A stretch of 64,000 nt of DNA, taken from the NCBI GenBank assembly GCA_009712185.1, contig WASQ01000042.1:1-64000 (forward strand), in the 5' to 3' direction. The notes under the pieces are model-generated. The model saw nothing but the letters and a program-made list of their open reading frames with translations. It did no database searches and was not told where the DNA came from. Made by a program: the position numbers and the translations under genes. How positions within the stretch are numbered: the first letter of the stretch is position 1; each line of letters starts with the position of its first letter. Below, in pieces: positions 47,031 to 53,580 of the stretch. This DNA comes from Telmatospirillum sp. (GTDB lineage: Bacteria; Pseudomonadota; Alphaproteobacteria; Rhodospirillales; Magnetospirillaceae).

Positions 47031-50000
47031 TCAGCCCCCGAGACGCCGGACCTTCAATCTCACCGTCTCACCGTCCAGGCTGGCGCACACCACATCCGCC
47101 GAATCCTGGGTCAGATCATGGTCAAAATCGATCCTCGTCGCCAGCGTCTCCCGCATGATCCGGTCACGATAGCGTATGAACGCGTCCCGTACGGCACCGC
47201 CCGATTGCACGGTCACGGCAATCCGATCGGTCAATTCCAACCGGCAGTCCTTGCGGGCCTGCTGAATGAAGCGGATCAGATCGCGTCCCCATCCCTCCGC
47301 CCGCAAGTCGGCGGTCAGCGTCAGATCGAGAACCACGACGCCCCGGTCCCTGTCGAACGGTTCCGCCGCGAGACCATCGCCGATCCGAAGACGCGTCTCA
47401 AATTGCCCCGGCATCAGAATCTCGCCGGCGATTTCCGCTGAGCCGTCCTCGCGCAGACGCCAGTCGCCGGCCCTCTGGGCCGCGAAGATGTCTTTCATGC
47501 GCGCGCCCAGAATCTTTCCCTGCGCGGGGTCCACCCTGATCTCCCGGGTCCCGAAGTCCGTGGCGGACGCGGACAGGATCACCTCTTTGACATTCACCTC
47601 GTCGGCGATCGTCTGAAGATGGCAGGCCAGCAGGGATGTCGCCGGATGAGCCACCGTCAGGCGCGACAAGGGAATACGGACCCGGATCCGGTTGGCTTCA
47701 CGCACGGTCAGTACGGCACGGCAGACCTCGCGCGCAAGATCGACCGCTTTGACCAGAGCCTGGTCTCCGGGATCTTCCGTCAGGTCAGGCCAGTCGGTCA
47801 GATGAACCGACTCCTCTCCGGTCAGATTGCCATGAATATGATCCGCGATCAGCGGCATCAGCGGCGCGAGAATCCGACAGACCAGCGTCAATACGGAATA
47901 AAGGGTGTTGTAGGCGCTCTCCTTGTCGCCATCGTGGACGTCGCTCCAGAAGGCGCCCCGGCGATGCCGGATGTACCAGTTGTTGAGCGCGTCAACAAAA
48001 GGCTCAATGGCGGCATAAGCGCCGGGAACATCGAACGCATCCAGCCGCTCCCCCACCACCTGGCAAAGCTCGCGCGTCTTGGCAAGAATGTAGCGGTCAA
48101 GCGGGTGACGCCCGGAGCAATCCTGGCGGGCCCGGACTCCGTCAAGATTGGCGTAGGTCGTGAAAAACACATAGGCATTCCACAGACGCAGGATAACGGG
48201 CCGCACCGCCCGCCCGATGTCGGTACCGTCCGGACGCATGGAGAGATTTCCGCCCGCCATCAATGGACTGGACATCAGATACCAACGCAGCGCATCGGCC
48301 CCATGGGTCTCAAACACCACGATCGGGTCGGGATAGTTGCGGAGCCGTTTCGACAATTTCTGATTGCGGTCGTCCAGGACCACGCCGTGGCAGATACAAT
48401 GCCGGAACGGCGCCCTGTCGAACAAGGCGGTGGCCAAGACCATCAGCGTGTAAAACCACCCCCGCGTCTGGGCGACATATTCGACGATGAAATCGCCGGG
48501 AAAATTCCGGTCGAACCGTTCCCTGTTCTCAAACGGATAATGGAGCTGCGCGAACGGCATCGATCCGCTTTCAAACCAGCAGTCCAGCACGTCGGTGACG
48601 CGGCGCATTGTCGACCGGCCGGTCGGATCGTCGGGGTTCGGACGGGTCAGCTCATCGATCATCGGCCGGTGCAGATCGTCAACCCGGACCCCGAAATCCC
48701 GTTCCAGCTCATCGACGCTGCCGTAAACGTCGACCCTGGGCCACGCCGGATCGTCGCTTTTCCAGACCGGAATGGGCGTTCCCCAGAATCTGTTGCGGCT
48801 GATGTTCCAGTCGCGCGCGTTCTCGAGCCATTTTCCGAAGGAACCATCTCGCACATGCCCCGGCGTCCAGGACATCGTCCGGTTCAGTTCAACCATCCGG
48901 TCCCGGATCCGGCTGACCGCCACATACCAGCCATTGATCGCCCGGTAGATCAACGGCTCGTCGGTCCGCCAGCAATGCGGATAGGCATGAACGATCTGGT
49001 CATGGCGTACCACCGTTCCGTCGCGCCGGCTTTTCAAATCCCGGATGATTTGGGGATTTCCTTCATGGATGACGTTCAATCCGCAATAATCGGAAACCTC
49101 GCCGGTAAATCGGCCGGCCTCATCGACCGGAACGACGACAGGAAGATCGTGCGCCCGCCCCAACGCCAGATCATCCTCGCCAAACCCCGGGGCGATATGG
49201 ACCACGCCCGTTCCGTCGTCCGCCGACACGAAGCCTGCGGGCAAAACGCGAAAAGCGCCGGGCGTGTCGGCGAAATATGGAAACAGGGGCCGGTATGTCC
49301 GGCCGGCGATCTCACGCCCCGTCCGCATCGCAACGACCGTCGCCGATCCGAATTCCTGCCGGTAACGTGGAAGTGCGGCCGCGGCAAGGATGAAACGGAC
49401 GCCGTCCCGCTCCAGAACCGCATAGTCCAGCGCGGGATTGACGGCCAGAGCGAGATTGGCCGGCAGGGTCCAGGGTGTCGTCGTCCAGGCAACCAAAACC
49501 GTTTCGCAACCGCAATCAGCCTCTTCGGGATCGAGATGGAACGCGACCGTCAGGGCGGGATCGGTCCTGTCACGATAAGCGTTGTCGAGCCTTGTCTCGA
49601 AATTCGACAGGGGCGACTGTACCGCCCATGAATAGGGGACAACCCGATAATCCTCGTAGATCAGCCCCTTACGCCATAATTCCTTGAACGCCCACAACAC
49701 GCTTTCCATGAAAGACCGGTCCATGGTCCGGTAAGCGCGATCGAAGCTGACCCAACGGGCCTGCCTGTCCACATAGGTCCTCCAGTCCCCGGCATAGCGC
49801 AGAACCGATCGGCGGCAGGCCTGATTGAAAGGGCCCACCCCATACTCCTCGATGGCGGCGCGTCCAAAGACCTGAAGCTCCTTTTCCACTTCCAGTTCCG
49901 CCGGCAAACCATGGCAATCCCAACCGAATCGCCGGTCGACATGGCGCCCCCGCATGGTCTGGTAGCGCGGCACGATGTCTTTCACGAAGCCGGTGGCGAT

Positions 50001-50237
50001 ATGTCCGTAATGGGGCAATCCATTGGCGAAAGGCGGGCCATCGTAAAATACGAACTCGTTCGACGATCCACCGACCTCGGCAGGTCGGCGTCCGAGAGAT
50101 TTTTGGAAGGTCCCGTTTTTCTCCCACCGCTTCAGGACGGCTCGTTCGATCGCCGGAAAATCCGGATCGGTCGCCGCCGTCGGGTAGAATCCGGCCATTT
50201 GCCGGTCCGGTTCAGAGGAATGATCATCCTGGTCCAT
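47031..50237 (-). CDS. ileS: Isoleucyl-tRNA synthetase, type 2 (eukaryotic-like)
   Basis: 1068 aa class I synthetase charging tRNA-Ile. The HIGH motif is HYGH in FANGLPHYGH (residues 76-79) and the second motif is KLSKR near residue 625, in KLSKRLRNYPDP. GLPHYGH and KxSKRLxNYPDP are characteristic of type 2 IleRS, which also includes eukaryotic and mupirocin-resistant enzymes, rather than the PYANGDIHIGH/KMSKS type 1. The CP1 editing domain includes WTTTPWTLPANLAL and YVAQTRGWFYTL follows. The C-terminal region (over 300 aa) matches type 2 length. ATG50237 with TGGAGACACCG. The leader contains an apparent attenuator. Confidence 0.97.
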   Translation of the reverse strand: MDQDDHSSEPDRQMAGFYPTAATDPDFPAIERAVLKRWEKNGTFQKSLGRRPAEVGGSSNEFVFYDGPPFANGLPHYGHIATGFVKDIVPRYQTMRGRHVDRRFGWDCHGLPAELEVEKELQVFGRAAIEEYGVGPFNQACRRSVLRYAGDWRTYVDRQARWVSFDRAYRTMDRSFMESVLWAFKELWRKGLIYEDYRVVPYSWAVQSPLSNFETRLDNAYRDRTDPALTVAFHLDPEEADCGCETVLVAWTTTPWTLPANLALAVNPALDYAVLERDGVRFILAAAALPRYRQEFGSATVVAMRTGREIAGRTYRPLFPYFADTPGAFRVLPAGFVSADDGTGVVHIAPGFGEDDLALGRAHDLPVVVPVDEAGRFTGEVSDYCGLNVIHEGNPQIIRDLKSRRDGTVVRHDQIVHAYPHCWRTDEPLIYRAINGWYVAVSRIRDRMVELNRTMSWTPGHVRDGSFGKWLENARDWNISRNRFWGTPIPVWKSDDPAWPRVDVYGSVDELERDFGVRVDDLHRPMIDELTRPNPDDPTGRSTMRRVTDVLDCWFESGSMPFAQLHYPFENRERFDRNFPGDFIVEYVAQTRGWFYTLMVLATALFDRAPFRHCICHGVVLDDRNQKLSKRLRNYPDPIVVFETHGADALRWYLMSSPLMAGGNLSMRPDGTDIGRAVRPVILRLWNAYVFFTTYANLDGVRARQDCSGRHPLDRYILAKTRELCQVVGERLDAFDVPGAYAAIEPFVDALNNWYIRHRRGAFWSDVHDGDKESAYNTLYSVLTLVCRILAPLMPLIADHIHGNLTGEESVHLTDWPDLTEDPGDQALVKAVDLAREVCRAVLTVREANRIRVRIPLSRLTVAHPATSLLACHLQTIADEVNVKEVILSASATDFGTREIRVDPAQGKILGARMKDIFAAQRAGDWRLREDGSAEIAGEILMPGQFETRLRIGDGLAAEPFDRDRGVVVLDLTLTADLRAEGWGRDLIRFIQQARKDCRLELTDRIAVTVQSGGAVRDAFIRYRDRIMRETLATRIDFDHDLTQDSADVVCASLDGETVRLKVRRLGG

Positions 50238-50295: not shown

Positions 50296-50324
50296 GGCCC
50301 CACCGATCCGGCGGGGCCTTTTTT
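50296..50324 (-). terminator. Intrinsic terminator in the ileS leader (attenuator stem 3:4)
   Basis: On the minus strand GGCCCCGCCG (50318-50309) pairs with CGGTGGGGCC (50305-50296) as a full 10-bp stem including one G-U, loop GAT, preceded by AAAAAA and followed by TTTT. On the plus strand the same site has an A-C mismatch, so the structure is better on the ileS transcript. It ends 58 bp before the ileS start. Confidence 0.85.
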
Positions 50325-50349
50325 CCGTTCTCGCTGACGCTGCTGGCGC

Positions 50350-50424
50350 CTATCGCATGCGAATACGGACGACCCCGGACGGGTCGCCAATAATCGAGCT
50401 GAACTGCGGGCACATCTGCGACAT
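50350..50424 (-). CDS. Candidate ileS leader peptide (24 aa)
   Basis: Too short for routine gene calls. ATG50424 to TAG50350 encodes 24 residues beginning MSQMCPQFSSIIGDP and ending VVRIRMR. Codons 11 and 12 are tandem ATT (Ile), with another Ile at 21. A TTGACA...TAATCT promoter ends 6 nt before the ATG, so the transcript would start at or next to it; translation would be leaderless, as known for the trpL leader of Sinorhizobium meliloti. The Ile codons sit immediately before the first arm of an 8-bp stem, and a terminator follows 31 nt after the stop codon. Leader-peptide status is an inference from this geometry. Confidence 0.6.
   Translation of the reverse strand: MSQMCPQFSSIIGDPSGVVRIRMR
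50368..50388 (-). promoter_or_regulatory. Attenuator stem 1:2 in the ileS leader
   Basis: GGCGACCC (50388-50381) pairs with GGGTCGTC (50375-50368), 8 bp with a 5-nt loop. The overlapping segment CGGGGTC (50377-50371) can instead pair over 7 bp with GGCCCCG (50318-50312), the left arm of the terminator. The two pairings are mutually exclusive. Confidence 0.65.
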
Positions 50425-50430
50425 GGCGAC

Positions 50431-50461
50431 AGATTACCCCTGGCGCCCCGGGCATTGTCAA
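50431..50461 (-). promoter_or_regulatory. Sigma70-like promoter for the ileS leader
   Basis: Consensus TTGACA (-35, 50461-50456), 19-bp spacer, TAATCT (-10, 50436-50431). The expected start site coincides with the leader ATG at 50424. Confidence 0.65.
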
Positions 50462-50785: not shown

Positions 50786-50826
50786 ATTTGGTGTAACGCG
50801 CGACCGCATATTCCGACGAGGATTTG

Positions 50827-53580
50827 ATGAAACGGCTTTTACCGGACCGGAGCGCCCTCACCACGGTCATCACCGTCAGTGTCGCGGTCTCCCTCATGCT
50901 GTTTATCCTGGTCCTGCGGCTGGACCGGTCGAATGAGGAGGCCCGCTTCCGTCAATTGGCGGCACAGCGGATCGAAGCTGTGAAAACCAACGTCTCCATC
51001 GCGCTGGATACCATTTCCCTTCTTGCCGAGCATTACGCGGTTACACCGCCCGGACAGACCTCGCGCGCAGACTTTCAAAAATTGACCGAGGGATCTCTCG
51101 CCGCGCACAAATTCATCCAGGCACTGGAATGGATTCCGTATGTGGCCGCCAACGACAGGACCGCTTTTGAACAACAGGCGCGCAACGAATGGCTGACAGA
51201 CTTCCGGATCAGGGAGCGGACGCCGGACGGGACCCTGACCACCGCCCCGGACCGCCCCGGCTATTACCCTGTCTTCTACGTCGAGCCGCTGGCCGGCAAT
51301 GAAAAAGCGGTCGGATACGATCTCGCTTCCGACAAGGACCGTTACTCCGCTTTGGAACAGGCCCGACTCACCGGGAGCCCCGCCAGCACCGGCCGGATCA
51401 CCCTGGTGCAGGAGAAAGGCAACCAATATGGCGTCCTGATCCTTGCGCCGGTCTATTCCCCGCTAAGAAACTCTGCGCGCGCCGATGATCTTTCAGGCAT
51501 ACGGGCGATGGCGGGCGCCGCTTTGGGAGTGTTCCGGGTCGGCGACCTGATCGAGGATGCGACCCGCACCGGGGCGGGCAACCAGGCCGCCGTCGCTCTT
51601 CACATCTTTGACATTTCCGACCCCACCGGACCACGGCAACTGTTTCCAAAAGCGCCCGACGAAAATATCGACACCGTCAGCGCCGGCCTCCACGCCAGCG
51701 TGACCTTGCCGGTCGGCGGCCGCGAATGGCGTGTTGTGGCCACCCCGGCAGCCGGCAGCGGCGCGCCGTTTCTGCCGCTGAACGCTGCCGTCACCCTGGC
51801 CTCGGCTCTTCTGTCGACGGCGGTTGTGGTTCTCGTCCTTCATCGCGGTCGCGACCGCGCGATTAACGAAGCCTTGAGCGCAACCAACCGCGAATTGGAA
51901 AGCCAGCGGACAGAACTGGAACAGCGGGCGACGGAACTGACTGCGGCGAATGCCGCGGCGAATGCCGCAAACACGGCGAAATCCACCTTCCTGGCGTCGA
52001 TGAGCCACGAGATCCGCACGCCAATGAACGGCATCATCGGAATGACCGGCCTGCTTCTCGATACCGGCCTTTCCCCCGATCAGAGGCATTATGCCGAGAC
52101 GATCCGGAAATCGTCGGAATCGTTGCTGGCGATCATCAACGACATTCTCGACGTCTCCAAGCTTGAGGCGGGGAAAGTAGACCTGGAGGACGCCTCCTTC
52201 GAGATCCTGCCGCTGATCGAAGGAATCATCGACATCCTCGCGCCACGCGTGCGACGAAAGGGCATCGAACTCACCTGCCTGGTGCCGCCCGAAACCCGGG
52301 GCGTTTATCGCGGCGATCCCGGGCGGCTTCGTCAAATTCTCCTCAATCTCGCGGGAAACGCGGTGAAATTCACCGAGCGAGGCCGGGTTTCCATCATCGT
52401 CGGGATCGAACAGGGAGGGGAAACCGAACGCATGCTGACCTTCGCCGTCACGGATACCGGAATCGGCATCTCGGAAACAGACAAGCCAGCGCTGTTCGGC
52501 GTGTTTTCCCAAGCAAACCTCGCAATCCAGCGCCGATATGGCGGCAGCGGGCTGGGTCTCGTCGTCTGCAAGCGGCTGGTCACATTGATGAATGGAACCA
52601 TCGGCTTCGAGAGCCATGAAGGGGCCGGCAGCCGCTTCTGGTTCCGGATCCCGATCAGCCTGTCCGAGGAACAGCCGGCGGCCACCGACACGGATTTTCC
52701 GCTGGCAGGTGTCCGGATCCTGGTGATCGACAGCAGGGAAGCCGGCCGCCAGAGTCTGCGTCACCAGCTTGAGAGCTGTGGCGCCTCGGTCGAACTGGCC
52801 ACATCCGGGCCGTCCGGACTGGTCTCCGTCCGGGATGCCGCCGACCAGGGCCGCCCCTTCGACAGCGTCGTCATCGACCAGGACCTCGCGGATATGAGCG
52901 GAACGGACCTCGCTGTCATTCTGCGCTCCGACCCCACCACCTCAGGACTGCCAATCATCTTGAACACGGCGGACGAGATCGCAAACGATGCCAGCCTGCT
53001 GGACGACCTTAAGCTGGATCACATCCTCTACCGGCCGTTCCGGCAAAGTACACTGGTGAAAGCCGTACAGGAGATCACCAGCCGCAGGAAGGAAATGGGG
53101 GCGGATGGGAAGACGTCCGAAGAGGCCGCGCGGGGACAGGCGACGTCCATGCCGCTGCGCATCCTGATCGCCGAGGACAATTTCATCAATCAGCAGGTCG
53201 CGACGGGCCTGATCGCGCGCCTGGGACATCATGCCGAAGTGGCGTCCGACGGTGCCCAGGCGGTCGATCGCGTCCGCGAGGGTGACTACGATCTTGTCCT
53301 CATGGACATGCAAATGCCGTCGGTGGACGGCATCGAGGCAACCCGGAGGATCCGCGCCCTGCCCGGTCCGAAAGGCAGAATCGCGATCATCGCCATGACG
53401 GCCAACGCCATGGTCGGTGATCGCGAAACCTGCCTCGACAACGGCATGGACGATTATATCGCGAAACCGGTCGACCGCAGGAAACTGGCGGAGGTCCTGG
53501 CCCGATGGCAGAGAACATTACGGGACCCGTCTTCCGGAATGTCCCACCTGCAGACGGTTCCGGTCGGCCCGGCGGCCTGA
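50827..53580 (+). CDS. CHASE-domain hybrid sensor histidine kinase with two receiver domains
   Basis: 917 aa. TM1 ([19 protein letters not shown]) and TM2 (near residue 320) flank a CHASE-type periplasmic domain ([23 protein letters not shown]). A coiled linker precedes HisKA with phospho-His in [15 protein letters not shown] (near residue 393) and HATPase ([29 protein letters not shown]). REC1 (about 625-745) looks degenerate: the acid pocket is VIDS and the usual KP is RP. REC2 (about 775-895) is complete ([23 protein letters not shown]). No output domain or Hpt, so phosphate goes to an unlinked partner. ATG50827 is preferred over TTG50824. Confidence 0.95.

Follow-up and report, generated by a model that had tools for sequence, protein, structure and literature searches.

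An accessory ileS and its upstream region

The window, by which we mean the whole 64,000-nucleotide stretch of Telmatospirillum sp. DNA analysed here, carries on its minus strand an ileS gene (47031-50237, stop codon included) whose product bears the HYGH signature, scores 807 bits with TIGR00392 and fits MupA and MupB models far better than those for valS or leuS. By sequence membership this is an accessory type 2 (eukaryote-like) isoleucyl-tRNA synthetase (IleRS) of the mupirocin-resistance type, and it may confer resistance. It is about 30% identical to type 1 IleRS, whether the latter comes from relatives or from its own genome, and 65% identical to its nearest type 2 counterpart. The second ileS of this genome, at C104, is the housekeeping type 1 gene, which has no leader upstream because it closely follows another coding frame. 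Only the Telmatospirillum sp. genome, among 11 genomes checked, has two ileS genes above the curated cut-off. Since type 2 ileS occurs in only 4 of the 317 genomes of the order and is absent from the same-genus genomes, the gene looks acquired. As a side observation, one same-genus genome (G003) is only 0.9 Mb long yet is rated 100% complete, while its congeners measure 5.7-7.1 Mb, pointing to either a reduced symbiont or an artefact of the rating.

Upstream of ileS, an earlier sequence-only reading of this DNA had described a minus-strand promoter, an ATG, a 24-codon frame with an Ile-Ile pair, an 8-bp stem and a terminator 58 bp before ileS, and all of these lie where it had placed them. A TTGACA -35 element (50456-50461) is followed by a -10 region, GGTAATCT (50431-50438), that can be read in two ways: as TAATCT (50436-50431), with a 19-bp spacer and the ATG 6 nt downstream, or as GGTAAT (50438-50433), with a better, 17-bp spacer and the ATG 8 nt downstream. 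A generic promoter scan returned no site, and it left the leader promoter unlisted because neither reading of the -10 region meets its rule. The short frame, MSQMCPQFSSIIGDPSGVVRIRMR (50350-50424, minus strand), comprises 24 codons and a stop, running from the ATG at 50424-50422 to a TAG at 50352-50350. Its transcript would begin at or near the ATG, so that the leader is probably translated from a leaderless start. Codons 11 and 12 (50389-50394) form the Ile-Ile pair of putative control codons. On the far side, the upstream neighbour, a CHASE histidine kinase gene (50824-53580, plus strand), is divergent, and the terminator therefore serves no upstream gene on its own strand.

Within the leader, three predicted pairings (1:2, 2:3 and 3:4) are mutually exclusive and include an intrinsic terminator, and each of them beats most or all shuffled sequences; the leader folded as a whole has a z-score of -4.5. 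Segment 1 (50381-50388) begins at codon 13, directly after the Ile codons, and forms with segment 2 an 8-bp hairpin of -16 to -17 kcal/mol (z -3.2; 3 of 500 shuffles equally good). When segment 1 is masked and segment 4 is taken as not yet made, segment 2 with its extension (50354-50377) pairs with segment 3 (50339-50312), which includes the left arm of the terminator, to give an antiterminator of 17 pairs and a small apical part at -30.5 kcal/mol (z -2.0; 17 of 500 shuffles equally good). The 7-bp pairing of segments 2 and 3 previously proposed (50377-50371 with 50318-50312) is thus present but understated in size, as it continues through 50369-50365 with 50328-50324 and then 50363-50359 with 50334-50330. 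The terminator has its core at 50318-50296, followed by TTTTCCGTTTCC, and reaches over 50330-50286 with -33.6 kcal/mol (z -3.9 for 50345-50290); a strict terminator scan found two sites of such strength in the 64 kb, of which this is one. Its stem had been described as perfect only on the minus strand (G-U versus A-C). That strand is indeed the stronger, but the plus strand version is only slightly weaker, at -29.8 kcal/mol with a T6 tract, and the stem alone therefore does not settle the direction in which it acts. Neither the T-box covariance model nor any other Rfam element matched the leader, and a sub-threshold match to mir-278 is simply the terminator hairpin.

Probable attenuation and its alternatives

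How might these elements act together? We think it probable that the leader is a ribosome-mediated transcription attenuator of the accessory ileS. RNA polymerase would start at, or a few bases from, the leader ATG. While Ile-tRNA is plentiful, a translating ribosome would reach the stop codon at 50352 and its footprint, at about 50370-50339, would block the antiterminator, such that the terminator forms and transcription stops before ileS. Under a shortage of Ile-tRNA, the ribosome would instead stall at codons 11-12 and cover segment 1 to about 50381-50378; segment 2, which begins at 50377, could then pair with segment 3, which would keep the terminator from forming and let ileS be made. These footprints come from rule-of-thumb arithmetic, and the register of the leader fits them. 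As a supplementary ileS of type 2, the gene would likely supply a spare synthetase under starvation or inhibition of the housekeeping type 1 enzyme.

Several features argue for attenuation. The tandem codons specify the very amino acid with which the downstream gene deals, the terminator sits downstream of the sole good promoter-like site and ahead of ileS, other attenuator-like leaders occur in the same genome, and independent Ile-codon leaders precede ileS in other families. Other features count against it: the exact leader is unconserved, its transcription start is deduced from the promoter-like site, the plus strand offers almost as good a terminator hairpin, a model of widespread ileS leaders (see below) scores it poorly, and the frame has a further Ile codon, codon 21, on the 3' side of segment 2. 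Moreover, there are only two tandem Ile codons, and the specificity of the signal would therefore be modest.

The conservation in relatives to which the sequence-only reading had looked was not found, although conserved or covarying structure would support an attenuator rather than strictly define one. The exact leader is absent from the 317 genomes of the order, in which only short fragments of the terminator stem match, and nothing like it or its terminator lies before the type 2 ileS genes closest in sequence (57-65% identical). As a singleton, this copy can draw no support from conservation. The proposal of an attenuator therefore holds up in its self-consistent anatomy and in the Ile-codon leaders of independent families, but not in the recurrence of this leader among relatives.

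Perhaps the short frame is fortuitous, and the hairpin next to it is an ordinary terminator that works in both directions to insulate the divergent genes on either side, with ileS transcribed from another promoter. Such a scenario would sit well with the missing conservation and with a plus strand fold that is nearly as stable and has its own T6 tract. However, it would have to find its promoter in the 58 bp between the hairpin and ileS, where no promoter-like site was listed, and it would have to leave the frame and its pairings to chance. When the stretch from the ATG to the terminator was shuffled, 15 of 1000 sequences kept a frame of 8-45 codons with Ile-Ile, and only 2 of 1000 combined an Ile-Ile frame with a 2:3 duplex energy equal to that observed. 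We regard this explanation as unlikely.

Ile-codon leaders upstream of ileS in other alphaproteobacteria

Elsewhere, we found three conserved elements, each a predicted Ile-codon leader, that precede ileS in alphaproteobacteria (referred to as f98, f77 and RIIxP), and none of them has an Rfam 15 match above the curated threshold. Family f98 comprises genomes of 0.5-1.1 Mb, with type 2 ileS in 58 of 60. At 26 of the 30 loci examined, type 2 ileS is preceded by a leader that mostly reads M....IIIIK-stop, then by a hairpin and lastly by a terminator. The terminator, GGGGCGC...GCGCC(C)-TTTTTT, lies a short distance upstream of ileS, and at all 26 leader loci segment 2 can pair over 6-10 bp with its left arm. 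At one locus (L286) both sides of this pairing have changed, to GCAC with GTGC, and the right arm of the terminator, GCACCC, matches as well. The f98 leaders are often leaderless or lie directly 3' of a tRNA gene (L161, L162, L259-L286). In members that have no upstream tRNA gene, the ATG mostly lies 6-10 nt past a -10-like hexamer, and this is consistent with leaderless starts; the distance in the window leader resembles the 6-10 nt or so of other families' leaders that likewise have no upstream tRNA. By its predicted pairings the f98 element is a classical IIII-leader attenuator, with a 2:3 antiterminator and a terminator ending in a T-run.

Family f77, together with a single genome of f80, has a leader that ends in (I)IIP-stop before type 2 ileS in 78 of 90 upstream stretches, with a near-invariant ATTATCCCYTARGGGG at the stop codon (L148-L152, L168-L251; L150 belongs to f80). 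The region of the start codon pairs with sequence after the hairpin, forming an outer stem whose letters vary between genera and match within a sequence, that is, they covary: the helix score is 19.1 for a sequence's own partner versus 15.1 for swapped partners, with the own partner better in 69 of 78 cases.

The third element precedes type 1 ileS and encodes R-I-I-x-P as CGA-ATT-ATY-x-CCCGG (L291-L376), the CGAATTAT-CCCGG motif. Its stop codon normally lies inside a covarying hairpin, and none of 500 shuffles reached the observed percentage paired or the covariation score. A covariance model (R1) built from 13 of these leaders finds 31 of 90 upstream stretches, the 13 training leaders included. 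In other genomes, copies also precede a citramalate-synthase-like gene (L404) and small genes of unknown family (L398, L399, L405, L406). The window leader was considered as a member of this widespread element and rejected, since R1 gives it only 2.2 bits, an E-value of about 1 in 1 kb. Its TCG-ATT-ATT-GGC does resemble the CGA-ATT-ATC-GGC of RIIxP despite the low score; unlike in RIIxP, its stop codon comes after the hairpin. The window leader would work like the other Ile-codon leaders and is not itself a member of the RIIxP element.

In f77 and most RIIxP elements the hairpin is not followed by a clear T-run, and these elements may act through translation or Rho rather than through intrinsic termination; it might be asked whether the window leader does so as well. 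This seems quite improbable for a leader whose strong terminator ends in a T-run and is matched by an antiterminator. Taken across the families, leader-peptide control of IleRS appears, from sequence, to be widespread in the Alphaproteobacteria and to come in several unrelated forms.

Relation to known systems and possible meaning

A close parallel is trpRS1 of Streptomyces coelicolor, an auxiliary, antibiotic-resistant synthetase gene that Vecchione and Sello are said to have placed, in 2010, under transcription attenuation by a leader peptide (ref. 57 of PMC4787780). Like trpRS1, the gene in the window is an auxiliary synthetase of the resistant type with a candidate leader-peptide attenuator; unlike it, the window leader uses Ile rather than Trp codons, belongs to an alphaproteobacterium rather than an actinobacterium and probably has a leaderless start. 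Another, alike in gene and class, is an 'ileS leader CDS' of Caulobacter crescentus, CCNA_03934, mapped by ribosome profiling (PMC4117421), and the earlier remark that no described case was known for an alphaproteobacterial ileS was therefore too strong. Like the window leader, it is a short frame that precedes an alphaproteobacterial ileS, and it is translated; the main text gives neither its sequence nor a mechanism (PMC4117421). Nothing on ileS attenuation in alphaproteobacteria beyond this mention emerged from the literature searched, most subscription-journal full texts excepted.

Classical attenuators precede other synthetase genes, namely pheM-pheST of E. coli and trpS and leuS of Streptomyces (PMC1262725), but these respond to other amino acids and occur in other phyla or classes. 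A T-box precedes ileS in Actinobacteria (PMC1262725), where control likewise follows tRNA charging, but the T-box binds the tRNA directly. Sinorhizobium trpL resembles the window leader in being a leaderless leader-peptide attenuator of an alphaproteobacterium (PMC7298713, PMC10117765); unlike it, trpL controls tryptophan biosynthesis. By analogy with rnTrpL and peTrpL of Sinorhizobium (PMC7298713), a short leaderless transcript with a strong 3' hairpin could act mainly in trans, as a small RNA or peptide with attenuation as a by-product, but relatives conserve neither the RNA nor the peptide and we hold this to be very improbable.

If the leader is an attenuator of ileS, what purpose would it serve? 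An appealing scenario, which we offer tentatively and would not yet call probable, is that of an inducible antibiotic-resistance switch, and more broadly that ileS in alphaproteobacteria has repeatedly been placed under Ile-codon leader peptides of unrelated kinds. A mupirocin-like compound would inhibit the housekeeping type 1 IleRS, and as uncharged tRNA-Ile accumulated, ribosome stalling within the leader would allow the resistant type 2 IleRS to be made. If so, the shortage that the drug causes would itself induce resistance, and the gene under control would be a spare enzyme of the resistance type. None of the forms of ileS leader described here matched Rfam, and only a passing mention of such control emerged from the literature searched; conservation of the f98 and RIIxP elements is sufficient for tests in culturable relatives.

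Two further leaders were observed in the Telmatospirillum sp. genome itself. LLRLLGP, a Leu-Leu version of the RIIxP leader, lies before a leuA-type gene (L400, C106:12823-12865), and a Val/Leu-rich leader peptide with a terminator-like hairpin (L125) precedes an acetolactate synthase gene (C84:165132-166784).
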